This document shows, piece after piece, positions 10,577-59,000 of a DNA stretch of 64,000 nt. A program made the translations under genes and the position numbers. Each line of letters begins with the position of its first letter. The stretch's first letter is position 1. This DNA comes from a virus, in the IMG/VR virus record IMGVR_UViG_3300046169_000109, positions 1 to 64,000 of that record, one strand, 5' to 3'. The notes under the pieces were generated by a model, which saw only the letters and a program-made list of their open reading frames with translations, searched no databases and was not told where the DNA came from.

Positions 10577-10710
10577 GATATTTAATATTATCCCTCGTCC
10601 TTTTACTTTCGTCCTGCGTCCATCGGCCGGAGGCAAAGCTCCGAGCTTGTTTAGCCTGTCCGGATTTAGGTCATGGCCCCTGCCCTTTTGAATGTGGAGG
10701 TATGTCATGA
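10573..10710 (+). CDS. small lipoprotein, 45 aa
   Basis: Starts MRYLILSLVLLLSSC, a typical type II signal peptide with lipobox LSSC and lipidation at Cys15. The mature part is 31 residues with four more cysteines (RACLACPDLGHGPCPFECGG). It overlaps both neighbours as ATGA. A Cys-rich lipoprotein in an early operon could act at the envelope, for example in superinfection exclusion or as an outer spanin, but neither is shown. Confidence 0.6.
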   Translation: MRYLILSLVLLLSSCVHRPEAKLRACLACPDLGHGPCPFECGGMS

Positions 10711-11234
10711 GCGATTATTCAGTACCCGGAGCAGGCACACCTCGCTGGTGGGACCATAGACCAATTAAGTGGCAGGAGTCTCAGGCATTTGTCGCGAAGC
10801 ACCACCGGCATAGCAAGCCGTTGAAGCGTCATAAGTTTAGTATCGGCATGTACGATTACTCCACCAGAAACTGGGACTTGATTGGCGTAGTAACTGTTGA
10901 CAACTGCTCATCTGCATGGAGCAAGCATTATGACCATGCCGAGATTCGCAGACTGTGCGTCTTGCCTAATAAACCTAACCTTGCGTCCAAACTCCTGCGA
11001 CTTGCGACCGATGCCTGCGTAGCCATGGGCATGCAGAAGATAGTCAGCTATACCAAGCCGCATGAGTCTGGGTCTAGTCTTCAGGCTGTTGGGTATCATT
11101 TGGATCAGCGAGATGACGAGCGCGAGCTCTTTCGTTGGATCTATGTTCCTGACAGGGGCGAATTTCGCGATTACCGAGAGCAGAAGGCCCGGGCTAAGAC
11201 AAAAAGATTATTGAGGAAGGAGGCAGTAGCATGA
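10707..11234 (+). CDS. XF1762-like / GNAT-fold acyltransferase, 175 aa
   Basis: The pattern FVAKHHRHSKPLKRHKFSIG, then VVTVDN, EIRRLCV, LLRLATDACVAMGMQKIVSY and ESGSSLQAVGY matches the phage XF1762-type branch of GNAT-fold proteins, in which the acyl-CoA site is formed around the middle helix. The substrate is unknown. Start at 10707 is set by a good SD (GGAGG, 6-7 nt upstream) and an ATGA overlap with the lipoprotein gene. Confidence 0.7.
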   Translation: MSDYSVPGAGTPRWWDHRPIKWQESQAFVAKHHRHSKPLKRHKFSIGMYDYSTRNWDLIGVVTVDNCSSAWSKHYDHAEIRRLCVLPNKPNLASKLLRLATDACVAMGMQKIVSYTKPHESGSSLQAVGYHLDQRDDERELFRWIYVPDRGEFRDYREQKARAKTKRLLRKEAVA

Positions 11235-12820: not shown

Positions 12821-13175
12821 ATCTCAGGATGAATTGCGTACTCGTATTGAATCTCAATTTGATTTCGATGCTACCGATGCTGATCAGCGATTGCGCGAGT
12901 TCATGCTTCGTGAGCGTACACTGCTCGAGAAAGATGGTAGTGAAAGCCTGTACGAACCTAATGAGAATCGCAGCTATACTCTTGAAGAGATTGGCACCGT
13001 CATGGGGGTTACCCGTGAGCGTGTTCGTCAGATTGAAGAGGCTGCGCTTCGTAAATTATGGCGGCTTATTCGAAGCATTAATATGCGCGAGGATTTAGAG
13101 GAGTCGGATTGGATAAACGGATTAACAGAACATAAAGGCGATGACCCAACAGTCTACTACCCCGACTCTGTTTGA
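12630..13175 (+). CDS. sigma-70 region 4-like protein, up to 181 aa
   Basis: Residues 116-147 (SYTLEEIGTVMGVTRERVRQ then IEEAALRKLWRLI) are a clear sigma-70 region 4.2 helix-turn-helix, which in sigma factors contacts the -35 element. It could recruit host RNA polymerase to phage promoters, or act as a replication-linked regulator. The start is uncertain: the only early ATG in frame is at 12630, inside the zinc-ribbon gene, giving 191 bp of dual coding. A TTG near 12835 would avoid the overlap. It overlaps the helicase start by 35 bp. Confidence 0.65.
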   Translation: MEQIPIPKKPVGQPISGIPDDVVHALLADAGLLRKKYPRKNSKSSCKKSKDSEKRTKKLKPQPKSQDELRTRIESQFDFDATDADQRLREFMLRERTLLEKDGSESLYEPNENRSYTLEEIGTVMGVTRERVRQIEEAALRKLWRLIRSINMREDLEESDWINGLTEHKGDDPTVYYPDSV

Positions 13176-14457
13176 TTGGCAGATTTTTCATGCGAAAGTC
13201 TTAATGACTTCGCTGCTTAATCATGGCTATGCTAAGGATGGATCTGATACCGGAACCGGTAAGACATTTGTCGCGCTTTATTTGGCTAAGAAGATGGGTC
13301 TTACGCCCTTCGTCCTTTGTCCTAAGTCCGTTGTCCCGAGCTGGAAAGATACGATGCTTAGCTATGGCTATAAGCCTACTGATCAGCATGCCTATACCTA
13401 CGAGAAAATGATTCGTGGAAGCACCGAGTTTTATGACGGGTCTAAATGGTTGCTCAATCCCAAGAAGGCGCTTGTCATATTTGATGAGGATCATCGATGC
13501 AAAGGGAATAAATCCAAGAATGCAAAGATGATGATCGCGGCAAAGACTGCTGGCTTAAATATACTTTGTCTAGGTGCGACTAGTTGTACCAATCCTACAG
13601 AGATGAGAGCACTGGGTTATGTTCTCGATCTGCATGATGATAAGGGTTGGTGGCGTTGGTCGCTTAAAAATGGTTGTAAGCGTGGATTGTTTGGAGGCCT
13701 TGAGTTCAAAGGATCCAAAACAGTTCTCAAACGCTTACATGATCATATATATAAGAATGGTGCTCGGGGGAGCAGGATCAAAATTGCAGACCTGCCCCCC
13801 GGTGCCTTTCCTAACTCTAATATCATTGCCCAGGGATATGATATTTCCGGCCGTGCTGATATTGATTTGATCTATAATGATTTGAAGGCTGAATTGGCTG
13901 AGCTCGAAGGTAAGAAATATACTGATACTGATAATCCATTGGTTGCTCAGCTTCGTGCTCGTCAGGAGATTGAATTGTTAAAGGTTCCATTATTTGAAGA
14001 GCTTGCCCGGGATGCGTATGAGTCTGGAAACAGCGTAGCAATCTTTGTAAATTTTCGTGAGACCATGGAAGTTCTGCTTCGTCGGCTTGCTGGTCTTTGC
14101 GAGATCCGAATGATTCATGGCGGACAGACAGAGACTGAGCGTGAGCTTCAATGCTTAGGATTTCAAAATGATGCTGCCCGAATCATGATATGTACCGTTC
14201 AGGCGGGAGGAACTGGTGTTTCATTGCACGATATAAATGGCAATCATCCTCGGGTATCTTTGATATCCCCTACCTTTTCTGCGATTGATTTCAAACAGAC
14301 TCTTGGACGGATTCATCGAGCCGGAGCTAAGAGCCCTGCGGTTCAAAAGATTGTATTTGCGGAAGGAACAGTTGAGATGCGCGTCTGCAAATTGGTTAAG
14401 CGTAAGCTCGATAATTTAGATCTCATTAATGATGATGAGCTCAACCCGATCCTGTAG
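13141..14457 (+). CDS. SF2 (SNF2/DEAD-like) helicase, 438 aa
   Basis: Walker A SDTGTGKT ends at K41-T42, motif II is DEDH (115-118), and motif VI is QTLGRIHRAG (from Q386). The helicase C-domain has VQAGGTGVSLHD. Phage SNF2-like helicases of this size commonly sit beside DUF2800 nuclease, family A polymerase and primase genes, as here. The role is probably remodelling or unwinding during replication or recombination. Start set by ATG at 13141, overlapping the sigma-like gene. Confidence 0.85.
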   Translation: MTQQSTTPTLFDWQIFHAKVLMTSLLNHGYAKDGSDTGTGKTFVALYLAKKMGLTPFVLCPKSVVPSWKDTMLSYGYKPTDQHAYTYEKMIRGSTEFYDGSKWLLNPKKALVIFDEDHRCKGNKSKNAKMMIAAKTAGLNILCLGATSCTNPTEMRALGYVLDLHDDKGWWRWSLKNGCKRGLFGGLEFKGSKTVLKRLHDHIYKNGARGSRIKIADLPPGAFPNSNIIAQGYDISGRADIDLIYNDLKAELAELEGKKYTDTDNPLVAQLRARQEIELLKVPLFEELARDAYESGNSVAIFVNFRETMEVLLRRLAGLCEIRMIHGGQTETERELQCLGFQNDAARIMICTVQAGGTGVSLHDINGNHPRVSLISPTFSAIDFKQTLGRIHRAGAKSPAVQKIVFAEGTVEMRVCKLVKRKLDNLDLINDDELNPIL

Positions 14458-14492
14458 CACTTTGCTACACTTCTGATATCATGAAACACCTT

Positions 14493-14568
14493 GGGGCCAT
14501 AGCTCAGTTGGAAGAGCGCCTGATTTGCATTCAGGAGGTCGTCGGTTCGATCCCGTCTGGCTCCACCA
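14493..14568 (+). tRNA. tRNA-Ala (anticodon TGC), CCA encoded
   Basis: A 76-nt cloverleaf with acceptor stem GGGGCCA/TGGCTCC, D arm AGCTCAGTTGGAAGAGC, anticodon loop TTTGCAT and T arm GTCGGTTCGATCCCG; CCA is encoded at 14566-14568. Confidence 0.93.
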
Positions 14569-14579
14569 AATTTAAATTC

Positions 14580-14655
14580 GCTCCCGTAGCTCAGTTGGTA
14601 GAGCACATCCATGGTAAGGATGGGGTCATCAGTTCGAATCTGATCGGGAGCTCCA
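14580..14655 (+). tRNA. tRNA-Thr (anticodon GGT), CCA encoded
   Basis: A 76-nt cloverleaf with acceptor GCTCCCG/CGGGAGC, D arm AGCTCAGTTGGTAGAGC, anticodon loop ATGGTAA and TTCGAAT in the T loop; CCA encoded. It lies 11 nt after tRNA-Ala, so the two are probably cotranscribed. Confidence 0.93.
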
Positions 14656-14782
14656 TTATTAAATTATGAAATATAAAATATACCACCTAATTAAAAAACT
14701 TTTAACCTTCAGCCGTCGACTTTTGGCCAAAGAAGAAAAACCTTTAGAAAGACCCTTTTTATAATTGCATTTGTTCTGCATA

Positions 14783-15183: not shown

Positions 15184-15438
15184 ATGACTATGGATGCGGA
15201 AAAAAAGGCGGAGTTATTAGAGATCATGAAGGGCGATGTTCCGGTCATTCGAATTGGTAAGACTTGGGATGAAATGTTCACCCATATGGATCTTGAAATG
15301 GAGGATGATACCAAGGCCATGCTCGTAGAATGGGGCAAAGAGGTTGCTACCGATGATGAATATGCGGAGATCGCTATTCGTCGCGGGCTTGAGGAGTTTG
15401 TTGAGAAGGAGAATGCGAGCGATGAAGATAGCAATTGA
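15184..15438 (+). CDS. hypothetical acidic protein, 84 aa
   Basis: Acidic helical protein, unrecognised. A good SD (GGGGAGG) precedes the ATG. It overlaps the next gene by 17 bp. Confidence 0.65.
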   Translation: MTMDAEKKAELLEIMKGDVPVIRIGKTWDEMFTHMDLEMEDDTKAMLVEWGKEVATDDEYAEIAIRRGLEEFVEKENASDEDSN

Positions 15439-15613
15439 GAATCTAGGTGCTGAATTTAGTGCGGATATCGCAGATGACTGCACCCTTGATCAGGTCCTAA
15501 TTGCTTTGAAAGGTTTGCTTGTGGCCGCCGGCTTTCATCCTGTGACTGTCGACCAAGAAATAATCCCCAATGACTGGGCAATATCGGAGGTATTTAATAG
15601 TGAGCAGTCCTGA
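15422..15613 (+). CDS. hypothetical protein, 63 aa
   Basis: Start at 15422 (MKIAIENLGAEFSADIADDC) is chosen over an upstream in-frame ATG, which would lie deep inside the previous gene. Unrecognised. Its end overlaps the nuclease N-terminal gene by 14 bp. Confidence 0.6.
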   Translation: MKIAIENLGAEFSADIADDCTLDQVLIALKGLLVAAGFHPVTVDQEIIPNDWAISEVFNSEQS

Positions 15614-15872
15614 AGAACATCATGAGCTCGGGCCGAGCACATTAAAATATGTAGAGATCTGCCCGAGCTATAGAAGCAGTAATGAGACCAACATATTTGC
15701 TGAGGAAGGTACGATGCTTCACTCGGCTGCAGAGACTGGAAATATGGATGGTTTAAACGATGAGCAGATTCGATTGGTCGTATCCTGCCTTGATTATATT
15801 CAACCCTTGGAGGATGTCGCAGATGATATCTATAAAGAATTACGAACAACCATTCGTCATGGAGGAGAGTAA
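15600..15872 (+). CDS. DUF2800/Cas4-like nuclease, N-terminal part (separate gene), 90 aa
   Basis: GTG start at 15600 is supported by an SD (GGAGG, 9 nt upstream). The sequence LGPSTLKYVEICPSY and EEGTMLHSAAE is the usual N-terminus of DUF2800 (RecB/Cas4-type) nucleases: C21 is the first Fe-S cysteine and H41 the catalytic His of motif I. The frame stops after the second helix and first strand (YKELRTTIRHGGE), before the DxK catalytic part. That part is encoded by a second gene at 16046. In most phages both are one protein of about 370 residues. Confidence 0.7.
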   Translation: MSSPEEHHELGPSTLKYVEICPSYRSSNETNIFAEEGTMLHSAAETGNMDGLNDEQIRLVVSCLDYIQPLEDVADDIYKELRTTIRHGGE

Positions 15873-15874
15873 CG

Positions 15875-16012
15875 ATGAGTATCGACTTGTCCTTCTCTTT
15901 GATCGAAGTCCTGTGTTGGCTTCTGGGGCTGTACGGCGCAGTGACGGGCTTTATATTAATACTCCTGACGATGTGCTACCTGTGTACGCATTCAAAATGG
16001 AAAAAGAATTAA
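15875..16012 (+). CDS. small membrane protein lying between two nuclease halves, 45 aa
   Basis: ATG at 15875 has a strong SD (GGAGGA, 8 nt upstream) and starts 2 nt after the N-terminal nuclease stop. The product has a hydrophobic helix (LIEVLCWLLGLYGAVTGFIL and ILLTMCYLC) and a basic tail (HSKWKKN), so it is probably a membrane protein with a single span or hairpin. A second frame (15859-16053) is also open across the same bases and encodes a soluble-looking 64-residue peptide without SD; either could be the true product. Confidence 0.5.
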   Translation: MSIDLSFSLIEVLCWLLGLYGAVTGFILILLTMCYLCTHSKWKKN

Positions 16013-16045
16013 TGAGATTATTAAAAGATAACCTGGAGGCTTGGT

Positions 16046-16891
16046 ATGAGTAGCGACAAGATATTCGGAACAGTTGATCGAGTAATCATTAAAGGTACTC
16101 ATGTTGACTTGGTTGATTTTAAATTCGGCGTTGGAGAAATTGACGATGCTGATGTGAACATACAGGGGCAGGCGTATCTTCTTGGGGTCATGGATAAATT
16201 CCCAGAGTTACAGACTGCCACGGTTCATTTTATAATACCGCGCCGTGATGAGGTATTGACTCATGATTATAGCCGTTCGGACATGGAAGATATTCGACTG
16301 CGCATAAACATGATAGTTGAAAAGGCTGAGCTTGAGACCGCCGAAGCGATACCTAATACCGAGGGCTGTAGGTACTGTAAGCACAAACTTTCATGCCCTG
16401 CCCTATCTGAAAAGATGTTACCTCTTGCTAAGAAATATAGCGCGAGTGTTGAAGATTTTGAGATGAGCCTTTGGGACAGTTACAGCCCGGAAAATGTTGA
16501 GAATCCTGTCGTCCTAGCCAAGATGCTCAATGTCGCACAGGTTGTAGATAAATGGCAGGCTGCTGCAAAGAAACAGGCAACAAAATTGGCTGTCGAACAG
16601 GGTGAAGAGATTCCAGGTTATGATCTACATTATCGAACTGCCAGTCTGAAGATTGAAGATACTCAAGGTGCTTACGATGCGGTTGAACACTTACTAAGCC
16701 CTGAAGAATTCATGAATGCTTGTGACATTAGTTTGCCCAAGCTTGCTAAGAAATATTCAGAGAAACTACCTCGCGGGGAGAAGAAGACAGCCCGGGGAAC
16801 AATAGAATCCAGCCTTGAAGAGTCTGGCATATTGCCGCCTGAGGAAGATCGGGACAGGAGTCCATATTTACGGAAAAGCAGAAACCTTTAG
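16046..16891 (+). CDS. DUF2800/Cas4-like nuclease, C-terminal part (separate gene), 281 aa
   Basis: ATG with a strong SD (GGAGG, 6 nt upstream). FGTVDRV gives D11, VDFKFG gives the D24-x-K26 motif, and IQGQAYLLG the motif IV glutamine (Q40 or Q42). The cysteine cluster CRYCKHKLSC (about 107-116) would complete a Cas4-type Fe-S site whose first Cys is in the 15600 gene. Helical C-terminus. It is probably a recombination or DNA-end-processing exonuclease working with the helicase and polymerase. Confidence 0.75.
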   Translation: MSSDKIFGTVDRVIIKGTHVDLVDFKFGVGEIDDADVNIQGQAYLLGVMDKFPELQTATVHFIIPRRDEVLTHDYSRSDMEDIRLRINMIVEKAELETAEAIPNTEGCRYCKHKLSCPALSEKMLPLAKKYSASVEDFEMSLWDSYSPENVENPVVLAKMLNVAQVVDKWQAAAKKQATKLAVEQGEEIPGYDLHYRTASLKIEDTQGAYDAVEHLLSPEEFMNACDISLPKLAKKYSEKLPRGEKKTARGTIESSLEESGILPPEEDRDRSPYLRKSRNL

Positions 16892-16904
16892 TTTTGGCTT
16901 TCGT

Positions 16905-16957
16905 GTATAACATTTCACATACAAACATATAACAATAAAAATAAGGAGATATAATAA
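16905..16957 (+). promoter_or_regulatory. candidate promoter and SD before the 238-aa gene
   Basis: TGTATAAC lies about 50 nt before the ATG, a second TATAAC about 30 nt before it, and AAGGAGAT is a good SD 9 nt upstream of the ATG at 16958. This leader uses an SD and has no CCACACACC box. Confidence 0.5.
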
Positions 16958-17674
16958 ATGGCTAAAACAGCATTATCAGAAACACAGTCCGAAGAGGCTG
17001 CATTAACAAACGCGAGCGGTGACATCATTGAGGGCAGTCCTACTGCATCATTAACGATTCAGCCCGGCGCGGGATTGGTGGGGGACTTCGATGCGAGTGA
17101 TATAAGTTTTCCAAAGCTTCAAATCGCTCAGGGTGTTGGCGCACTTTCTGAGACATTCAAGAAAGGAACCATCGTTCTGGATGGCGAGTTCGATATTAGT
17201 AACGGCACGGAGGATGTAGAGATTACAATCTGCCGTATTGGTAAGATGTTTGAAGAAAACATCGAGTGGGACTCCGGAGAAATCCCTCGGATCTTCAATT
17301 CTAAGGCAGAGGTACTCGAAGCAGATCCGGAAGCAACCTTTGTCTGGGCGGATGGAACTCCTGCTAGCTGGAAACCAATCGCTGATGCGTTGGTATGCAT
17401 CAAGGGCGAGGATCCAACAAACTTCCCATTCGAATTTGGCGGAAATAATTACGCCTTCGCAATCTGGAGAATTAAGGGAACTGCATACAAGCATGCAGCG
17501 GTACCGATTTTTACAGCTGCAAAGATGTACTACCGAGACGGCATCAATGTCGGATCGTTTCAGCTTACGACTCAGAAGGTCAAGGCCGGTAACAATGTCG
17601 TCCACGCTCCTAAGCTTCGCAAGGGATCACGGCACGACAAGAAGTTCGTAGAGTGGCTCAAGGATTTTAGCTGA
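16958..17674 (+). CDS. putative single-stranded DNA-binding-type protein, 238 aa
   Basis: The family is not certain. A disordered N-terminus (to about residue 45) precedes a beta-rich domain (FPKLQIAQGVGALSETFKKG then TIVLDGEFDI) and a basic C-terminus (LRKGSRHDKKFVEWLKDFS). Its position between the DUF2800 nuclease and the family A polymerase is where many phages encode a single-strand binding protein (DUF2815 type), so that role is inferred from context, not from a motif. It has its own SD. Confidence 0.5.
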   Translation: MAKTALSETQSEEAALTNASGDIIEGSPTASLTIQPGAGLVGDFDASDISFPKLQIAQGVGALSETFKKGTIVLDGEFDISNGTEDVEITICRIGKMFEENIEWDSGEIPRIFNSKAEVLEADPEATFVWADGTPASWKPIADALVCIKGEDPTNFPFEFGGNNYAFAIWRIKGTAYKHAAVPIFTAAKMYYRDGINVGSFQLTTQKVKAGNNVVHAPKLRKGSRHDKKFVEWLKDFS

Positions 17675-17781: not shown

Positions 17782-19683
17782 ATGAGTAATCAAAAATTTG
17801 CAGCATTAGACTTCGAGACATTTTATTCGAAGGACTATAGCATACAGGGAAGCAGCACATATCAGTATGTGCATCACCCAGAATTCGACGCCTATCTAGT
17901 TTCAATATGGAGTCCCGAACATAGCTATGTCGGGAGAACTGATGAATTTAAAGATTGGAAGAAGTTCGATGGGTACACTTTTATCGCGCACAATGCGTCA
18001 TTCGATCAGCGCTGTTTCGAGCGTTGCGTAGAGCTAGGCATCATTCCAGACATTGATGTTTCATGGGTCTGTACCGCTGACATGTGCGTATATTTTCAGT
18101 ATCAAAGAAACCTAAAAGGTTCAGCCAAAGAGATTCTTGGAGTATCCATGGACAAGGAAGTCCGCAATAACATGAAGGGCAAGACCTGGGATGACATGAT
18201 TGCCATGGATGAAAGCAAAGCTGTTCTTCAGTACGCCCTGGACGATGCGAAATACACCTACGAGATCTGGGAAAAGCTGTGGCCCCTTTGGCCTGAGACC
18301 GAAAGGCTTTTGTCCCATCAAACACGGACAATGGCTTATCGCGGATTACCTGTAGATTTAAAGAAGGTTGAGGAAGGTATAGACAAGCTTGAAGGGCATC
18401 TTTTTGAGGCCAAGACCAGTCTTCCATGGTACGGAGAGATCGATCCGGACACCAAGAAGGAGTATGTAGTATATTCCAAAAAGGCTATGGCGATTGAATG
18501 CCGCAAGGCTGGTGTAGAACCTCCTAAGAGCCTAGCGAAGGACAGCGAAGAGCTAGCCAATTGGATCAAAGAGCATGGAGATAAGCTCACCTTTGTATCT
18601 GCGATGCAAAATTATAATCGCATTAACATGCACTTGCAGCGGACCAAATCTGTTAAGGATAGATTAACTGACGAAGGTCGCATGAGTTATAATCTGAAAT
18701 ATTTCGGAGCAGATGCTACCGGAAGATGGAGCGGAGATGCTGGGTTTAATGTACAGAATATGCCACGGGATACTAAATACGGAGTTAACATTCGTAATGT
18801 CGTTAGTCCTGCCAAAGGAAAGACCTTAGTCATATCTGATTTATCTCAAATCGAGCCGAGATTGACTGCATTCCTCGCTGGCGATGATGATTTCCTTGAG
18901 CTCGTATCCAAAGGCATGAGCCCATATGAAGCGCACGCTCGTCAGACCATGGGATGGACTGGTGGAAAATTAAAGGACGAAGATCCTGAGCTCTATCTTT
19001 TGGCTAAGGTTCGTGTTCTTCAACTTGGATACGGGAGTGGATGGTTTAAATTTGCCGAGACAGTTAAGGCATATGGACAGACACAGATTCTAGACTCCAG
19101 CTTTAGTCGTCAGGATGAATTAAGATTTCAGGAATTTGCCAAGAAGTATCAGCCGGGCAAGTTCTCGGCCTATTCTAACTTAAGTGCAGACGAGCGACGC
19201 CAATGGGTTAATGCTTATATACAGGTTCAAGATTTCCGGGATAAAAACCCAAAGATTACATCTTCTTGGAAGAATTTAGATAAGCGTCTGAAGACGGCTG
19301 CTAATGAAGGTGATGATTTTAAAATAGAAATCCCGAGCGGACGGACATTAAATTATTTTCGCTGTCGTCATGAACCGGACGGGGTGACCTGTGCAACCCA
19401 GAAGGGAAGCATCAGACGGACAAAAATGTACGGTGCTAACCTGTTCCAAAATTCTGTCCAAGCGCTTGCGAGGGACTGCTTCGGGTTCATTCTAAAAAAT
19501 CTCTACGATGGTGGGTATGACGTTGTTTTGCACGTCCATGATGAAGTTGTCGTAGAGGTAGAGGGGGAGAACGCTGAGGAGATAAAAAACGAAATTCAAA
19601 AAATCATGATGACCGGGCCGGAGTGGATGAAAGATGTACCACTCAGCAGCGATGCGATCATCTCAAAGGAGTACACGAAATGA
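17782..19683 (+). CDS. DNA polymerase, family A, with 3'-5' exonuclease, 633 aa
   Basis: The exonuclease domain has DFET (10-13) and HNASFDQ (from 70, D75). In the polymerase domain, motif A is DLSQIEPRL (from D353), motif B has K409 with YG at 417-418 (KVRVLQLGYG), and motif C is HDEVV (586-590). All are intact. It replicates the phage genome together with the helicase, the primase-helicase and probably the 238-aa protein. Its stop overlaps the dNMP kinase start as ATGA. Length is normal for phage enzymes that lack the 5' nuclease. Confidence 0.95.
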   Translation: MSNQKFAALDFETFYSKDYSIQGSSTYQYVHHPEFDAYLVSIWSPEHSYVGRTDEFKDWKKFDGYTFIAHNASFDQRCFERCVELGIIPDIDVSWVCTADMCVYFQYQRNLKGSAKEILGVSMDKEVRNNMKGKTWDDMIAMDESKAVLQYALDDAKYTYEIWEKLWPLWPETERLLSHQTRTMAYRGLPVDLKKVEEGIDKLEGHLFEAKTSLPWYGEIDPDTKKEYVVYSKKAMAIECRKAGVEPPKSLAKDSEELANWIKEHGDKLTFVSAMQNYNRINMHLQRTKSVKDRLTDEGRMSYNLKYFGADATGRWSGDAGFNVQNMPRDTKYGVNIRNVVSPAKGKTLVISDLSQIEPRLTAFLAGDDDFLELVSKGMSPYEAHARQTMGWTGGKLKDEDPELYLLAKVRVLQLGYGSGWFKFAETVKAYGQTQILDSSFSRQDELRFQEFAKKYQPGKFSAYSNLSADERRQWVNAYIQVQDFRDKNPKITSSWKNLDKRLKTAANEGDDFKIEIPSGRTLNYFRCRHEPDGVTCATQKGSIRRTKMYGANLFQNSVQALARDCFGFILKNLYDGGYDVVLHVHDEVVVEVEGENAEEIKNEIQKIMMTGPEWMKDVPLSSDAIISKEYTK

Positions 19684-23293: not shown

Positions 23294-23310
23294 GTCACAA
23301 AGTCGCTACA
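23294..23310 (+). repeat. integrase arm-type repeat, copy 1 (candidate)
   Basis: GTCACAAAGTCGCTACA, identical to 23515-23531. The two copies flank the tRNA-Leu-like core, as arm-type integrase sites flank attP cores. Confidence 0.55.
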
Positions 23311-23377
23311 TTATGACCATTTCAACGAGTATAACATTGCATCACACCACTGTCAACTTGCTGAATATCAACAACTT

Positions 23378-23417
23378 GCCCGGATGGCGGAATTGGTAGA
23401 CGCGCTGGATTCAAAAT
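23378..23417 (+). other. attP-like core: 5' half of tRNA-Leu (CAA)
   Basis: 40 nt match the 5' acceptor strand, D arm and anticodon arm of a bacterial tRNA-Leu, through the anticodon (TTCAAAA, CAA). The sequence then diverges and no 3' half follows, so this is not a working tRNA. Integrases often use tRNA genes as attB; this is the likely crossover identity block. Confidence 0.65.
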
Positions 23418-23426
23418 TTGATATAA

Positions 23427-23495
23427 AGCACTAGTTGTAGGGGGTTTATGCGAAAACCCTAGACAAAATGCAGAGAAGACACAAAATGTAGTGCT
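23427..23495 (+). promoter_or_regulatory. inverted-repeat leader before the integrase
   Basis: Outer AGCACTA (23427-23433) and TAGTGCT (23489-23495) enclose a GGGTTT-ATGCGA-AAACCC hairpin (23442-23459). The structure ends directly at the ATG, so it could hide the start codon and control integrase translation. Confidence 0.5.
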
Positions 23496-24659
23496 ATGAA
23501 CCACACACCAAGTAGTCACAAAGTCGCTACAGCACTTCGAGCAAAATCGAGAACTGGTACGCGAATCTATAAACGCAGCAAAAATGGAGGCTGGAATTTC
23601 AAGACCAAAGCGAATGGAAAAGTAAGATATTTCCCGCTCGGGATTGATAAGTCCCAAGCACTTGCTTTGGCCGATCAGATACGAGCACATTTAATACTTC
23701 ACCCGTTTCGAGATGTGCAAGCGATGTTTAATAAAAAAGCATTCGCGTTGACCAAGCCTAAACCTCCGACCTTAGGCCAATGTCTTGAGGCCTTAGCCAT
23801 GAATCAAGTATCCGCAGGAATTACCGATACGACCCTGACTGGATATAGACAGGCTATTACTCGGTTGATTAAACAAGTCATCGGAAAAGTTCCGGACGGC
23901 AGTTTTGATCTGTCCCTAATCGACGAGGATTTTATCCGAGAATATAAAAACCAAGCGCTTTCGGGCATTAGGGATGAGTCAAAGATCGCGAGTCGTAAGC
24001 GGACGGTCAACAGTCTCATGCGTCAGGTTAAGGCTGTGTTTGCCCGGCCTAAAATATTCAAGGATTTCGATATGGAGTTTGTCGAATCTATTAGATCTGA
24101 AGAGTTTTACACGAAGCTTAAAAAGCAGTACCGGTTACCACCAGAAAGTCTGATAAGTAAAACTTTTCAGTTATTTGAAGAGTCGGTTGGCGATGTTTAT
24201 ACCATGCTCGGGCTCAGTCTACATTTTGGATTGCGTAGAAACGAGGCGTTTCATTGTCGTAGAGATTGGTTTGATTTAGATGGCGATCGCGCTCGTATAA
24301 CTGTGGCGTCTGACAGAGACTTCAGACCGAAAGGTGGGCACGAAGGTTTTACTCTGGGGAGCAAGGTAATAGCCAAATCAATTCTTAATAAGGCACCGGG
24401 CGACGATCTATTAATTACAACCCGAGCGGATTATGGACGGGTGCTCTTTGACGATTTAATTAAAAAGCTTCGAGCTATTGGCTGGGAAAGATTGAGCCCG
24501 CTGCATGAACTTAGAAAACTGTTTGGTTCTTATATAGCTACAACTGAAGGTATTTACATGTCCCAAAAATTCTTGAGGCATGCTGATGCGAGTACCACTA
24601 ACGACAGCTACGCGGATGTAATGGCCAACGATAAGATAAAAAACTTATGGGCTGCCTGA
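23496..24659 (+). CDS. int: tyrosine recombinase integrase, 387 aa
   Basis: Catalytic residues are seen: R247 (GLRRNE), H337-x-x-R340 (HELR), H362 (FLRHADAST) and nucleophile Y372 (NDSYADV). A phage-type N-terminal core-binding domain spans about 90-190. It would catalyse insertion at the host tRNA-Leu gene. The codons after ATG (MNHTPSS) are made by a CCACACACC box, and codons 7-12 contain the second 17-bp arm-type repeat, so the start overlaps regulatory DNA. No SD. Confidence 0.9.
   Translation: MNHTPSSHKVATALRAKSRTGTRIYKRSKNGGWNFKTKANGKVRYFPLGIDKSQALALADQIRAHLILHPFRDVQAMFNKKAFALTKPKPPTLGQCLEALAMNQVSAGITDTTLTGYRQAITRLIKQVIGKVPDGSFDLSLIDEDFIREYKNQALSGIRDESKIASRKRTVNSLMRQVKAVFARPKIFKDFDMEFVESIRSEEFYTKLKKQYRLPPESLISKTFQLFEESVGDVYTMLGLSLHFGLRRNEAFHCRRDWFDLDGDRARITVASDRDFRPKGGHEGFTLGSKVIAKSILNKAPGDDLLITTRADYGRVLFDDLIKKLRAIGWERLSPLHELRKLFGSYIATTEGIYMSQKFLRHADASTTNDSYADVMANDKIKNLWAA
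23499..23509 (+). promoter_or_regulatory. CCACACACC box at the integrase start
   Basis: AACCACACACC directly follows the ATG (codons 2-5), unlike most others, which precede it. There is no SD. Confidence 0.6.
23515..23531 (+). repeat. integrase arm-type repeat, copy 2 (candidate)
   Basis: Second exact copy of GTCACAAAGTCGCTACA, inside the first codons of the integrase gene. Confidence 0.55.
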
Positions 24660-50054: not shown

Positions 50055-53000
50055 TTATGAAATTCCGAGAGCCTGAGCTTTTTTAATGACCGCGACGTAT
50101 GCAGCATGTTCCTTTTTTTCTAGGTCCGCAATGCGTTGCAATTTCTGATCTTGGGTAAAAGCTTTGGAAGATTCTATCTTAGATTTCTGTGCTCGAATCT
50201 TAGACTTTAGTGCGTCTGCATATTTTACAGAGCTCGATAATGTAAGCAGATCTTTCATTTCCTGCTGTGTATACGCATATTCTTTGGGCCCGGCTACTTT
50301 TGCCGCTTTAACTGCACGCTCAGCTGTCTTGTTTGCAGTGCGAATTTGATAGTATGTATTCTTGGTACTAGCGTTAGAGGTAGATGAGCGGTAGAACCTG
50401 TTTGTTATAGGCATCTTGTTCGCATCAAACTTACCGTAGTCTTCAGATGTTCCGGGTAAACCTGGCCATAGCAACCCACCAAATGCGGCATTTAATATCT
50501 GACCTGGACCACCGCTATAGCCTAATAAAAGATGCTCTATTTGGCTACCGGAAATATCCCACTTCATATCAGAATCATCCAAGCTCTTTAAAGGATCCGC
50601 TCCAAAAATACCTGAGAAAGACCCTTTTACCTGATCACTTCCGCCCATGAACTCATTTATACTTTTTGATAGAGCATTCCAATGCTCCTGCGTTCTTTTC
50701 GGATCCATCATATGAGCAGGCTTGGGGGCTTCGAATGGGCGGTCTTCCATCCGTATAGGTGCATCCATGAAATTTTTATTAGCCGATAATTCATAGAAAG
50801 GTTTTACCGGTGTGGGTATAAAAGCAGTACCCAGACCAGCGCCCCCTACAGGATTGAAAGAATTAAGGGTGGCGGCCATATTTCGAGAAATGAAATCCAT
50901 AGGCCCAGATCCACCTCGGCCCATAGCATATTTTGCGAATACATCCATCGCTGTTTGTCCCATCGTCCAGAACATATTGTAGCCTAACGCCAATGGAATT
51001 CCGACATACCCGGTATTCTCTTTGCCAGGCATACTAATTAAAGCAGTGGTATCCCTTCGATAAGATGATATGCGATCATATCCTGGCTCGTCTTCGTCCT
51101 CATCGTCGTCAATTAAACGATTAAATAAATTCACAAGCATAGAGGCTAGTACTATGCCACCTATTAAATTACGGCTGCCCTTGAGCCCTCTCTTGTGAAA
51201 TGTCTGAATCATACGATCCATAGAGTTCATAGACGCTCCGAAAAATACAAAGAATGCACCAAAAGTCTGAGTCATTGTTCCCTTCTGATTGAAGTCCACG
51301 GTTACATTTCTTGAAATATTCGCTGCTTCATGCACAGTCCTACCGTTCTCAATAGCAGACCAAAAAGCTGACATCCGGACGGTGTTTTCTACAGCGGTAT
51401 TGATGGAATCAAATGTATCGACTGCATGTCTTAACATATTCCTTTCAGACTTTTTATTTTTCTTACCTTTTTTCTGCATCTTCTGCAGATCTTCGATCAT
51501 CTCGGTAACTGGTTTATTTCGGAAGTAACCAACCTTTGCGCCTGCTTGAACCGCAAATTGATACATCTTTTCGTAATCCTTATTTGCGAGAATCTTCTTT
51601 GCATACTCGTTAGCTTCTTTTCTGTCGGTTGGGAAATCGTCTAGTAATGTGGCTTCCCCCCTAGCCTTTCTTTGCTCGACATTAAGAATACCACCCATGA
51701 AGCCTTTGAGGCGTTTGTAAGAGAAAACATTTTTGGCGAACTCTTTTTTATCATCCTCGGTAAGGTGAATGTACGCGGTTTGTAAATCTCTGAAGAAGTT
51801 GGGAATAAGGAACGCAGGGTTTTTTGATGTAAACATACTCGCCATAAAACGAGTCACTGCGTTTACCCCACTGAGAAATTTAGGAAGAGTTTCGTATCGG
51901 AGATTTTTTACCGAGGATGCAAAGCGCATACCGCGCTCATTATTCTGCATCTCAATATAAAAAGGCTCCCCGTTCTTGCGGTAGGTAAATACAAGCGGGT
52001 TGTTTTGAAACTCCCTGTTTATCTCCCGGCGAGCCATGACTAAACCGTCAATTTTCTGGTCACCTACAACCAGCTTTTCTGTTTTTATTTCGTAATGCTT
52101 TTTAACATCCACCCTGCGAAACTCTTTCTTGAATACGGCATCTTTACCCTCAAATAGTTCGCGTGCGGCTTCTATTATAGTGGGGTCTTTTTCGATCTTA
52201 TTAAGAATGTCTTTTCCGCCTGGTATACTGTTCAAGTCTAATAAAGGAAGAGAATCTCCGACTACTTCTTTGCCGTGGTAAGCTACCGTGCGCAATATTT
52301 CAAACGCCGTGCCGAATGCATTTGAGACCGTGTTCTTTTGACCCAAAATAGCACCCTCATAATATTGAGACTGTGCAACGGGGAAAACCATTTTAGGGTC
52401 TGGAGCAACGGCATTTTCACCAAGCCTACCGAACGATCCTTTAAATAAGAATTTATGTTTAGGCATATCCCACGCCCGACCGGCAGCGGTACTTGATTTG
52501 CCACCTATTTCATAGGCACGCTCATTATCAAACAGAGTTTGCGTTTCACCCTCGAATCCTTGCATCGGTGCATAAGAATATGCGTTATCTGCTCCGTTAA
52601 ACTGGTACATGAAAGCAGACCCGCCTTGCTTTTTCCAATCAAAGGATGAACTAGCTGTCACCATGGCAAGCTCTTCATTAATGCCCCCGTCCTGGTCGTT
52701 TTTCATTAAACCGTTTGCGGACCGGTGCCTTAGCCCCTCCCGGTTAAACTCGTAGAATTTTTGTAAAGGATTTCTTTCGTCTTTAAGAAAGGCTAAGAAG
52801 TTTTTGTCTTTCTCCATGGTCTGGACAACTTCAATTGCAAGCTCGGTAGATACGCCGCTCATACGATCACCATTCTTATCAATCATCTCCTGAATGGCTT
52901 CTTTATGCTCGTCTTTTGCATCCTTCAGATATTCGAGATATAACTTTTTGATGTGGTCGTTACGACTGGGAGCAGCGCGGGCGATTAAATACTTACCCCA

Positions 53001-56000
53001 CTGCTCATTTGTTATGCCGTGATCTGCAAGCGCATCTTCAATAGGCTCGATAAAGCGGAGATGGGCCTGACGAACGACCTCGTCCGTTTTACCAAAGTAT
53101 TGCTGCCAAAGACCTTTGACATCCAGCGCATCAAGCAAGCCCTTATCTTCAATACCCAAGTCCTTCAGTGCATTGGATATGATCCTAGTAGATGGGCGAG
53201 CACTGTCCAAAGCAGCCGCGATGACGCCATCTTTGCTAAAGCTTTCTTTATGCTTAGCAAAATAGTTTTTTAAGTCCTGCCTGCCGGACTCCCCTAAACC
53301 AAACTTATTGGCTAGGCTTGTTAGTATCCTTGTGGCCCCGATCGAATCATCAGATATTCCAGAGGATAAAGAACTGGTGCCAGGATCCATGACTCGGACC
53401 TTGAGCTTCGGGTAGTTAGGATGTTGCTTGAGGTCTTTGGCCCATTTGTAAATTAAGTACTTCTGAGCAGGAGGCATGGGCATATCAAACGCATTCCAAA
53501 AGACTTCGTCTGTGCGGAACTCACGCATAATCTTTTCAAGAGAAAGTGCTTTGCCGTCTTTCTTAAGATTAAACAGTTTCTGATTTGTTTCAGTGCCGGA
53601 TAATGCTTGGGATATTTTATCGTTTAAAGGATCTAGCGTGAAATCAGGACCTCTGAAAGATACAGGATCGTTTAATTTTATGTCCTCGATCTTATCAATC
53701 TGCTTGGAGTCTACAGCTTCGCCACTTACACCATCACCCTTTTGAACACCTTTAAAACCGCTGTCATCAGTTTCCATATTATCAAGAACACCTTCAGGGG
53801 CATCCTCTCTAATGAAGTCTTCGATGGAATTATCGATCGTGTTTCGCTGCAGAACATTTGTTGCATTCGAAGAGTTTTTTGATGTCTCAGTTTCATCAAA
53901 CCCACGACCGTCGGCCAGACGCACGCGGCCTGCATCGTAAACCGCTTGGATAATAGGTTTAACCTGCTTAACCGCAGTATCAATATCGGGCACTCCATTG
54001 CTCCACAATGTATTAGTCTCTGATATTTGAGTACTCTTACCACTATCTAATACAACAGTTCTACGCACCTCCTCGGATAAGTTCTTCCATCCTGACTTTT
54101 TGGGATTCTTTGAAGCTACAAAAGTTGGGTCTTCTTTAATATTAAGCAGCTTATACGCTTCCTTAATAAAATCTGCCCATACATATGGGACGATGCCTCC
54201 AGCAGGTCCGCCAGGGAGTTGCTTATAATTGTCACCATTAACCTCAGACGATGGCTCGTATTGAAGAGATAGAACGGCTTTCTTTAATGCATTATCTGAT
54301 TTGGGATTGAACTTCTTGGTCTTGATCTGACTAAGTAAATACTCAACAAATTGAACAGGGCTTACCGAGTTGCCCGAGGATATCCCAGAAGTAGCTTGTG
54401 CATCCATCAAAGCGACTTGTTGGCGGGCACGGCTTTCAATTTCTGGATTATCAATCAAGAACTGATCACGAGCACGAGATTCTAAATTCTTAGGAAGTAC
54501 ATGACCGTTACCCTTCTTCCACAAACCTTTTACTCTTTTGACCTTCAGCTTTTTACCGTCGGGCTTTGTGATTTCATATGCGGGAATGTCCTGATACTTC
54601 TCGCTGTTAAATTCTTCAGCCAATGCTTTTTCCATGGCCTGAGACCTTTTATTTTCCAAGCTCCTAGCAATGTCCGGGCTCATCTGCTCAGAACCAGAAC
54701 CTGTACCAAAAGTTGTACGACTTGGTGAAAAGTCTTCGGCTCGGGATGCAGCGAAAAGGTCGAGAACTGCGATTCCTTGGTCGGCGGACCCACGGGCAAA
54801 TGATCCGTGCCCTTTACCAGATTTTACTGTTTGTGTATCAAGCTCGCCCAAGGCAAAGAATTCATACTCATCAGGAGATGCAACATCTGCACCCCACGCC
54901 TTTGCTGCTTGTGTAGTCTCCTCAGCAATCTTTTCAGAAACAACTTCTTCAAACTCAGACTTTGCTTTGTCTCTAAGATCTTCGTACTTCTTTTTTGCTT
55001 CCTCGTAGGCATCTTCAACACCTTCTATTTTTCGAAGCTCTTTAGCTATAAATAGACGGCGCTCATCCGCAGTTAATTTATTCCAAGCTTGCAGGTCGCC
55101 AGTCCATCCAGGTTCAGATTTTGATTCATCAGGCTTCCTGCGGTTTGCAACGCCCATATCCTCGGCAATATCAGACTCCCAAATATCAGTGATCTTATCG
55201 ATCGCATCCAACTTTTCTTTGTAGAATAAGAACTCTGTCAATGTCTCAGTCCACTGCTTACCACCATGGATCTTAGCGAAATATCCACCGGTCTCTTCTC
55301 CTTGAAATGCACCGATCTCATCGTAGTCAAAGTACAAGGCTGCGAGTTTTTGCCTAAGACCAGGTATCCGTGCTCCTTTTACATCTTTGCCGGGCTTTAT
55401 TGCACCGGTTGTTTCGAGCTCGTCGTCGTATCCATTAAGCATGCGCTCTATACGGGCACGCTCCTTTGGATCATCCGTTTTTTCTAGAAGCTGCTCATAT
55501 TCGGCAATGTCCTTAGCAATCTCAGATGCTCGTAATTCTAAAATCTGGTGGTACCTTTGCTGCTTAGATCCCCGAAAATCACGATCGTCCAATATCTCAA
55601 GCCCGCGACCGGTAGCCAATTCATAGACTGCCATTTCAGAAAGCATAACTCGGTCGATGTCTCCATTTACCAAATCGCGATAATTTTTACCTGCTTTCTT
55701 ATCCATCTCCCGCAATCTGAAGAGCATCATACTTGCAATAGGTGTACCCTTTTCAGACTGGAAAAATAGTCGGTCCTTGTCCGTATATCGGTTGGTTCCT
55801 ACACCCTCCGGCATAGCGACTGATGCACGCACAGCATCAAGCATATTGACATATTCCTGAACTGTTTTGCCACCGAACCAACTCAGCTTGTCCGTAAGCT
55901 TCCTACCATTTATAAACGGATTGAATGCCTGGGTTTTATCGATGCCTGAGCCAAGGGCGGTTGGGTCCTGTTGGTCTGATTGGGATTCAACAAAGGAATC

Positions 56001-59000
56001 CATTGCATTTAAAGACTCTTCAAGAAGCGTGCGACCTTTTGAGTCAAAATTTAAAATGCTCGATATAGCATCTAGAATTTCAGAAAATAATGACTTATTA
56101 CTTCCAGAATCTGATTCTACTTTGGTTAAAAAGTTCTGCAGCTCTTTATCAGTGTAAAGCATAGCCAAAAACTCATCAAACCGAGTTAGGTAGTTTGGTA
56201 TTTGTTTTTCTGTAATAGGGTTACCGAAGGAATCTTGCTTTGGTCTGATTGATTTATCTGACATCCACCCTGCTCTGGCTTTTTTCCAAGCGTCATACAG
56301 CTTCTGCATGTTTTTATCTGAGAAGGTAACCGTACTGCCTTTGCGTATGTAATTAGTAGACTCTGGTACCGTTATCGCATGCATAAGCTCGTGCAATAAT
56401 GTTAAACCTGTTCCACCTGGGTATATAACAACCCCTCCTATTTCAGCATCTTTTTTGTAAAAATATGTGCCGCGGTCTTTAGAATTTGAGTCGTTAATAA
56501 AACCTACTCTTAAATTTTTAATTTTATTAGACTTCTTAAGTCTTGAAGCTAATGCTTTTTCAAGCTCACTACCTGTGTTTATTAGGATGTCTAAAGCATC
56601 CCCAGAAGATATACCACCCTGCGCTTTTTGTTTTGTACCATCATACTTTGACACCTCTGACCGGCTCTTAATAAGAGCTTTTTCTTTCAAAGATGAAACA
56701 GGGTCTGCAGAAATGACATTACCGTCCTTGCCCTGGATCTCGTCTATTTGAGCGGTTTCGGGCTCTGGCGATTTCTCCGAATCCTCTGTTTTCGCCTTAG
56801 CCTTAGCCTTAGCCTTAGCCTTAGCCTTAGCCTTGGGCTGAGTATTAGAACCCTCCCACAGTCTCCAGTTTGTATATTTGAATAGATAAGACTGGCTGTC
56901 GGATACACCACCAACTTCTTCCCACCTACCTTTTTTCTTATGCCAAATAGCTGTGTCTCTTCCGCTACTAGCCAGCTGGCCAAGTGTGTACTTCTCAAAA
57001 TTCTCGGTTTTGAAACCACCATTTTCTTTTGTCGGAGCTCTTCCGGGGCCAACATATTTGTAATAGTTGAAATGCGGGACATCCTTCCAATCGATTGTTG
57101 TTTTCTCTGGCTCGATCGCATGCAGATATTGCTTGAGCATCTTGAGCTTTTTATTGATGTCTGCTAGCTCAGCCTTCTGCTCTTTTGTAAGCTCAGTCTT
57201 TTTGGGCTCTTCCTTTGTTGCTTCGGGCTTGGCTTTAGTCTCCTCCTGCTTGGCCGGCGCCGGCGCCTTCGTCTTGGCTGGTGCTTTTGTCTTGGCCGAT
57301 TGCTTGGGCGCTCCTTGATTAAGGTTTTGCTTATACTGAATAAACTTTGGGTTTAAGCCCTTCTCCTTTTCCGCAACCGCTTTTGCTGCTTTATACTCTT
57401 TAGCTAGATACTTGTGGTACTTGTCGTTATACCGCTGAATGTAGTCACCCTCTTTTTTATCTTTTGAACCTTTTGCACTTCGTTCAGCAGATTTTTTCGG
57501 TCCGAATTTAGAACCGTCCCACTCGCGATATTGTACTTTGTTACCAAAGCGGTTAATTACTACTACGATCTTGTGGGAATATTTGTAGTCTTTAGCTTGC
57601 TTAGCTCCAAGAGCTGTCGGGTTGAGAATAGCTTCTTTCGATCTTTCAAGCTCAGCAATACGGGTACTTATCGCCCCGGTTGCAAATTCTACACGCTGTT
57701 CATATTCAACAAATGCTTGGCGTACCATCTCAGCACTGGCGGCTTTTAAGCTGGATACATCAGCTAATCCAACACCAGCAAGAGCACTCGAAAAGATAGC
57801 GCTGTCCTGCAATGCATTGAGATCCATGATCTCAGCAATGATCTGGCCATAGGAAATATCCCCTTCCTGACCATTGGTCTCCTCTAAAAGTTTTTTCTTC
57901 GCTTCTTCAGCACGCTTCTCAAAAGCTTTCTGATCGAGCACAAGCTTGCTCATAGCAGTAACTTTTTCAGATACTGTCTTTAGCTTTTCACGCTCAGCAG
58001 CATAGAATTCTTTTTGTGCTTTCTCAGCAGCTTCTCGGGTATCAAATTTTTGGGCTGGGCCACTGCGACGAGTACCAGGAAGTCGAGTGGTTAAAGAAAA
58101 CTTTCCACTACTCTCTTTGATGTTTGCAGAGGGTAAAAGATTCTGAACCTCGTTAATACTAGATATAACACGATCTTCCTGAGATACTACCGCTTCGCCA
58201 CGCTTTGCACGGTTAGTAATTTCGCGAGCGACACCCTCAGGAGAATCATCTTTAACAGGTTTTTCTTTAGGCAGATTTTGTGCGCGGGTAGCTTCTTTCT
58301 TAGCGCTAGCTAATTGCTCCCTACTTGATTTTGCCCTTTTGCGACTCTCAACAACCTTCTTACCAATTCTCTTTCTTTCGACACGGTCCTTCGATGTTTT
58401 AAATTGTTTCTCAACACTAGAAAGTTCGCTCTCTACCTCTTTTAAATTTTCTTTTGCCGACGCGACCCGTTTATCTTTATCTAAGATATCGACGACATTT
58501 TCGGTCTTTGTTTCGCTCTCTTTATTTAAAAGCTGCTCAGCACCACGCTCAGCATCTTTGCCTTTCAGAGTTTTATAAACCTCACCGGTGGCAACATCAT
58601 CCCCAAGACTTACCCGGTTAGCTACGATGTTTTCTTGGACATTACCGAGCTCAGTATCAGTATAAGCAGACATCTCGGTAGGTAAGAGCTTTTTACCCAG
58701 AATCTTGTTTACTCCTTCAGCAATCTTCTTTGCTTGGGCCTCACCTTGAACACCTTTAATTACTGCAATTTTACGCATTAAGGAGTTCAATGCTTCCTCA
58801 TCACCCATTTGCTGAATAGGTGTCTCTTTAGCAAAGAACTCCTGAGCCATGCCCGGGCGTTCATGATAGTATTGACCAAAGCTGGGCCCGGTATCTTTTG
58901 AGAAACCGTTGGGCGTAAAACCCATTTTACCAAGGATCAATTGATTAAGATCAAACTGTTGCTCTTTTGATCCGCCAGTTGATTCACCACCGGTAAAGCG

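Follow-up and report, generated by a model that had tools for sequence, protein, structure and literature searches.

A predicted phage DUF2800-family exonuclease divided between two genes, with a conserved small gene at the break

Results

The viral DNA analysed here (the window; 64,000 nucleotides, positions 1 to 64,000 of IMG/VR record IMGVR_UViG_3300046169_000109) carries a nuclease of the DUF2800 family in two separate genes, N and C, with a small conserved gene, M, between them. We consider it likely that the two products assemble into one two-chain PD-(D/E)XK recombination exonuclease of the RecB/AddB/Cas4 type, which would be closed by pairing of strands β1 and β2 across the chain junction, with that junction acting as a gene slot.

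Layout and family assignment of the divided nuclease

Both nuclease reading frames proposed in a preliminary description of this DNA are present (Table 1), and an SD-like GGAGG lies ahead of N and ahead of C, as had been suggested. In the window M shares 14 nt with N and 8 nt with C, its start ATG lying within the His-Gly codons that close the N half, and N, M and C are read in successive frames, each one frame further on. The gene order of the duf2800-gp2.5-polA module has been described previously (PMC8093625). The product found in the window at the place of the Gp2.5/DUF2815 partner is without a family match of its own in Pfam and PHROGs.

Table 1 Features of the nuclease locus and its neighbours in the window.
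Feature	Position	Strand	Description
Phrog_62 DNA helicase	13141..14457	+	
N half of predicted DUF2800/RecB-type nuclease	15600..15872	+	90 aa, GTG start; helices and strand 1
N-half Cys21	15660-15662		
N-half His41	15720-15722		
Middle gene M	15859..16053	+	64 aa; conserved protein of unknown family
Hydrophobic ORF	15875..16012	+	45 aa; probably a single membrane helix; lies within M in the +1 frame
C half of predicted nuclease	16046..16891	+	281 aa; strand 2 onward
C-half residues			D11, D24, K26, Q40, Y44, Cys108, Cys111, Cys117
238-aa protein	16958..17674	+	At the Gp2.5/DUF2815 partner place of the duf2800-gp2.5-polA module
DNA polymerase A	17782..19683	+	With 3'-5' exonuclease domain; module partner

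The C half matches DUF2800 (PF10926; E 1.4e-22, 80.9 bits against a cut-off of 21) and the phrog_69 exonuclease family (E 2.7e-30). The N half alone falls under the family cut-offs, with E 0.21 (11.2 bits) for DUF2800 and E 0.013 in PHROGs; because the Pfam model misses it, phages of this kind would be annotated with a truncated nuclease. The proposal that the two genes are parts of one nuclease agrees with their alignment to a single-chain relative, L077, on which both halves match end to end. N is 59% identical to L077 residues 3-83 (81 residues) and C is 46% identical to residues 110-335, while the single chain itself scores 77.6 bits against DUF2800. Together N and C amount to 371 aa, as compared with 372 aa and 378 aa for the single-chain DUF2800 proteins of Pseudoalteromonas phage PHS21 and Vibrio phage LP.1, respectively; the DUF2800 protein of a Ruminococcus phage (NatCom_2329) is also a single chain, of 376 aa.

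The expected set of H, D, DxK and QxxxY residues is complete, with H on N and the others on C. Four conserved Cys residues follow the Cas4-type pattern, the first (N half) being remote from the three others (C half). In a 39-row alignment (22 rows for N and 23 for C) none of the ten active-site and Fe-S residues varies, which upholds the earlier assignment of the catalytic His and first Cys to N, and of D, DxK, Gln and the other three Cys to C. The four invariant Cys residues suggest that an Fe-S cluster may be bound. Of the earlier picture of a two-gene nuclease, the division of residues between chains therefore stands, in a conserved split under purifying selection; we infer that the two products act as a single enzyme and share an Fe-S site.

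Matches to Cas4 are weak (E 2.3e-4), and Cas4 proper was rejected as an identity because DUF2800 far outscores the Cas4 profiles. No CRISPR neighbourhood was seen at the window locus. The product is best described as a DUF2800/RecB-type PD-(D/E)XK nuclease and a predicted exonuclease. As it is encoded by two genes rather than as a single polypeptide in the window and some 40 relatives, we class it as a split derivative of the DUF2800 family. Strong purifying selection acts on both halves (pairwise dN/dS in the window clade, where dS is measurable, is ~0.03-0.1 for N and 0.04-0.06 for C).

The position of the break was assessed on an AlphaFold model of L077, which is of moderate confidence (pLDDT 79, pTM 0.67). 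Strands are predicted at residues 74-84 and 109-120, with the loop between them at pLDDT ~55-66. This succession of strand 1, loop and strand 2 would put the window's break between strands 1 and 2 of the core sheet, in agreement with the earlier suggestion of a split in the loop before the FGTVD strand. A PDB profile search with the nuclease gave no sequence-level match, so a fold search was used; the nearest solved folds for the L077 model were RecE, AdnA, Cas4 SSO0001 and MGME1 (E 6e-5 to 8e-4), and TM-scores for the PDB fold matches were low (0.27-0.47). The L077 gene (L077:2174-3193) ends ~50 residues earlier than that of another relative, L075, with a stop after ..VSSYLPC, and a frameshift near its end is possible.

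Conservation of the split

The order N-M-C is common to the window and ~40 independent viral contigs from many metagenomes, with C-half identities of 47-99%; the phages of this split family are mostly marine. A first scan of viral contigs returned 32 relatives, and in all 26 of those with complete upstream sequence N, the middle gene and C occupy three successive frames. A wider scan and a match in a genome collection added 14 more N-M-C loci, down to 47% identity (L056-L059, L062, L064, L065, L067-L069, L071, L078, L098 and L134). The genome-collection scan gave a single relative, also N-M-C. Its 14-kb contig had been assigned to a Rickettsiales MAG by binning, which does not identify the host. 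Other phages with the same split, to which the preliminary description had looked for support, are thus found in ~40 contigs. Nor are the relatives uniformly insert-free single genes: the close ones are all split and carry an insert, and single chains occur among the distant ones.

We give next to no credence to a broken gene or an assembly artefact. The window does carry a cluster of indels elsewhere, in which eight single-base insertions relative to L001 (21500-21892) break a primase/helicase-like gene (from 20164), which L001 has as one open frame; the cause is either local sequence error or recent decay. At the nuclease locus, however, ~40 contigs agree, both halves are under selection, and the DNA of L001, the 99% relative of the window, differs by 6% around the locus with no indel across 15412-16924. 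The concordant contigs and the lack of an indel against L001 exclude an assembly error.

Two relatives depart from the N-M-C arrangement. L075 is split but has no M, and its C start (ATGATGGAC) sits where M begins in other loci, so M is not needed for the split; as this is a single contig, L075 might be a frameshift error. In L077, which is a single chain, a loop of 24 residues occupies the split site. The C-half tree needs two changes in group A, either one split followed by re-fusion in L077 or two splits, and long branches meet there. Two other candidates were discarded as split loci: the Manatee Spring phage L133, which has a short C half by annotation, reads as a single chain, and in L095 an 883-aa ORF contains both halves.

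The gene between the halves

The inserted gene had been described as a 45-aa membrane ORF, with a second open frame kept across the same region. The second frame is real, and it is this frame, M, rather than the membrane ORF, that is the conserved insert gene; M is present in all N-M-C relatives, so the primacy given to the membrane ORF was not borne out. Across relatives M encodes 60-82 aa. It starts within the (His or Tyr)-Gly/Asp/Glu/Ala codons (xATGx) at which strand 1 of N closes, in most loci from a few to ~14 nt ahead of the N stop, and its overlap with C is 4-29 nt among the loci compared. M is under purifying selection (dN/dS ~0.04-0.3 outside the window clade, where dS is measurable). 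An IEGxIRQST[DE]NP motif near its start has been lost in the window clade. AlphaFold predicts a disordered start, followed by a small four-strand body and a C-terminal helix (pLDDT ~90). We see no convincing match for the M family in Pfam, PHROGs, PADLOC, or PDB sequence or structure searches; PDB matches to designed propellers (over a 25-residue stretch only) and to Hfq/SH3-like barrels were rejected as unconvincing. Searches that included Pfam and PHROGs gave no homing endonuclease match for M, nor was there one for the insert genes of the sister group described below.

The successive frames of N, M and C are such that two +1 shifts, from N to M and from M to C, would connect them, and the halves could in principle also be joined in expression by ribosome bypass, an intron or an intein. 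We regard any such joining as very unlikely, and these readings were rejected. Stops, overlaps and junction sequences all vary, with no conserved slippery or landing site, and C retains its own ATG, often with an SD-like sequence. No Rfam match of any kind, and so none to a self-splicing intron, was found in 15400-16300 up to E 1, and the gap encodes a selected protein. In the sister group, moreover, the gap spans 322-1006 nt and holds one to several genes.

A more substantial alternative, though one we hold to be the less probable, is that M is a third nuclease subunit, providing in trans an insert domain at the strand 1-2 turn. The distribution of M would suit such a role, as each N-M-C locus contains a single match to its profile, with none at any other place in the loci or the window, and a scan with the M alignment returned 25 contigs that were all N-M-C (25/25). 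M is also kept across 47-99% C-half identity, including in L098, L069 and L067, and overlaps the genes on both sides. The nuclease nevertheless occurs without M in L075 and in the single-chain L077, in the sister group a gap of this kind is filled by unrelated genes, and M evolves faster than C (mean column identity 44-46% versus 78%). Because L075 and L077 lack M and the sister group has other genes, we lean towards M as cargo in a tolerant slot rather than a subunit.

The overlapping hydrophobic reading frame

An SD-like GGAGGAG precedes the membrane ORF, whose frame is open in no loci other than the window, L001-L005 and L009. The idea of a split around a small membrane gene therefore holds in one clade, where that frame is overprinted on M, and fails as a description of the general insert. 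Within this clade the ORF is probably a real overprinted gene, as several weak tests favour. When codons are redrawn with the M protein held fixed, an equally long and hydrophobic ORF arises in ~1% of cases per sequence, or in 1-9% if the codons in common with a relative are fixed as well. Substitutions in M fall on first and third codon positions at 26:26 in the window clade, versus 96:192 in other clades (Fisher P 0.027), and the synonymous rate of M is depressed there relative to C.

It is possible, if not our preferred explanation, that the ORF is a chance by-product of M codons and no gene at all. It is absent outside one clade, its start and SD-like sequence can arise from the EES/DG codons of M, and an open frame by itself often arises in shuffles (P 0.11-0.37). 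A by-product would not readily account for a frame that four diverged lineages have both open and hydrophobic (codon shuffles give P ~0.01-0.09 for each), and the shift of substitutions from third to first codon positions and the lowered synonymous rate also speak against it. A different open hydrophobic +1 frame, of 63 codons and unlike the window's membrane ORF, lies inside M in L012 (4772-5014) and L014 (1776-2018). Between these two loci, synonymous change is 9/72 in M and 96/243 in C.

A second split in a helicase-fused sister group

Relatives at ~37% identity have a helicase with the entire nuclease fused at its C-terminus, as in the 814-aa ORF of L083, which gives profile matches to DUF2800 and helicase domains. 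One-chain proteins of ~815-880 aa comprising a helicase and a complete DUF2800 nuclease are found in L083 (866-3310), L084-L086, L088, L090-L092, L095 and L096. The arrangement parallels the helicase-nuclease fusions AddB and Dna2.

A second split is seen in L079-L082, L087, L089, L093, L094 and L097. Here the helicase ORF stops after the N half (..GYVGQIIRRKTGV, then the stop codon), and the C half is a separate gene that restarts ahead of strand 1 (MTTIAKDLREIRVKIDLGSGRSTFGTCD), so that the sister-group break would lie just before strand 1. The gap of 322-1006 nt contains 1-4 small unrelated genes with ATGA-type overlaps. These vary among members (coiled-coil-like, HTH and Cys-rich products), and the gap resembles a slot in which cargo genes are exchanged. 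On the C-half tree the second-split loci group as a single clade (93/96) that is nested inside the helicase-fused group and lies apart from the window's group. Given this separate clade and a break on the other side of strand 1, the second split is, on the sequence evidence, an independent event, one strand earlier than that of the window.

Other features of the window

A 62-aa ORF at 14481-14669 (..AQLEERLICIQEVVGSIPSGSTKF..) is a false ORF over genes for tRNA-Ala (14493-14568) and tRNA-Thr (14580-14655). The region 23300-23500 reads LARMAELVDALDSKFDIKH, as false ORFs over tRNA genes or their fragments typically do, and lies just before an integrase gene (23496-24659). It is a possible attachment site, and from this position before the integrase the phage is probably temperate. 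The window also encodes a Mom-like DNA modification protein (10692-11234; phrog_1384, E 4e-20) and, in the structural region, a single ORF of 3973 aa on the minus strand (50055-61976).

Discussion

In the mechanism that we propose, N, M and C would be translated in turn, probably with translational coupling. The N chain, bearing the helices, His, Cys1 and strand 1, would dock on the C chain by pairing of strand 1 with strand 2, and docking would restore, across two chains, both the active site and an Fe-S site of four Cys. The turn between these strands may tolerate a break, and the gap may then have become a slot for a small gene. In the window's phage family the slot would hold M, vertically kept, with the second hydrophobic ORF added in the window clade. 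The duf2800-gp2.5-polA context (PMC8093625) suggests that the nuclease may make ends for single-strand annealing recombination.

A wider reading, about which we are rather more doubtful than confident, is that the strand 1-2 turn is a recurrent and evolvable gene slot. The enzyme would have been cut at least two times and would act as an obligate heterodimer with a cross-chain active site and Fe-S cluster. The small genes inside (M, the overprinted membrane peptide and the exchanging cargo of the sister group) would be translation-coupled to both halves, possibly controlling assembly.

The divided nuclease shares its catalytic residues, QxxxY motif, four Cys residues, total length and place ahead of DNA polymerase A with the DUF2800/phrog_69 exonucleases. 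Those are one chain in the four named phages examined, whereas the window has two chains and a gene between. The nuclease domains of Cas4, AddB and AdnA have the same motif order, with Cys1 far from Cys2-4, and provide the best solved folds, but they too are single chains. Split phage enzymes are known, namely NrdA of Aeromonas phage Aeh1, the T4 topoisomerase gp60/39 and the phage 25 polymerase 43A/43B, and of these Aeh1 NrdA and 43A/43B are functional as two-piece enzymes (PMC2988022). As in the window, a contiguous enzyme gene has been cut into polypeptides with foreign sequence between. The cause or occupant in those cases is a homing endonuclease or an untranslated spacer, whereas the window gap holds a conserved small gene; the sister group's other split, with its changing small genes, is a further difference. 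A search of part of the literature turned up no description of a DUF2800 or Cas4-like nuclease in split form. What would be new relative to known split enzymes is a composite active site together with a composite Fe-S site, recurrent splitting, and a gap with no mobile element in it.

If this interpretation is correct, these phages encode a natural split PD-(D/E)XK nuclease with its active-site and Fe-S residues on different chains, for which many diverged split versions and a natural single-chain form are available for comparison. The two independent neighbouring splits, one with fixed and the other with changing gap genes, would offer a test of how genes settle within the gene for a replication/recombination enzyme without a homing endonuclease.
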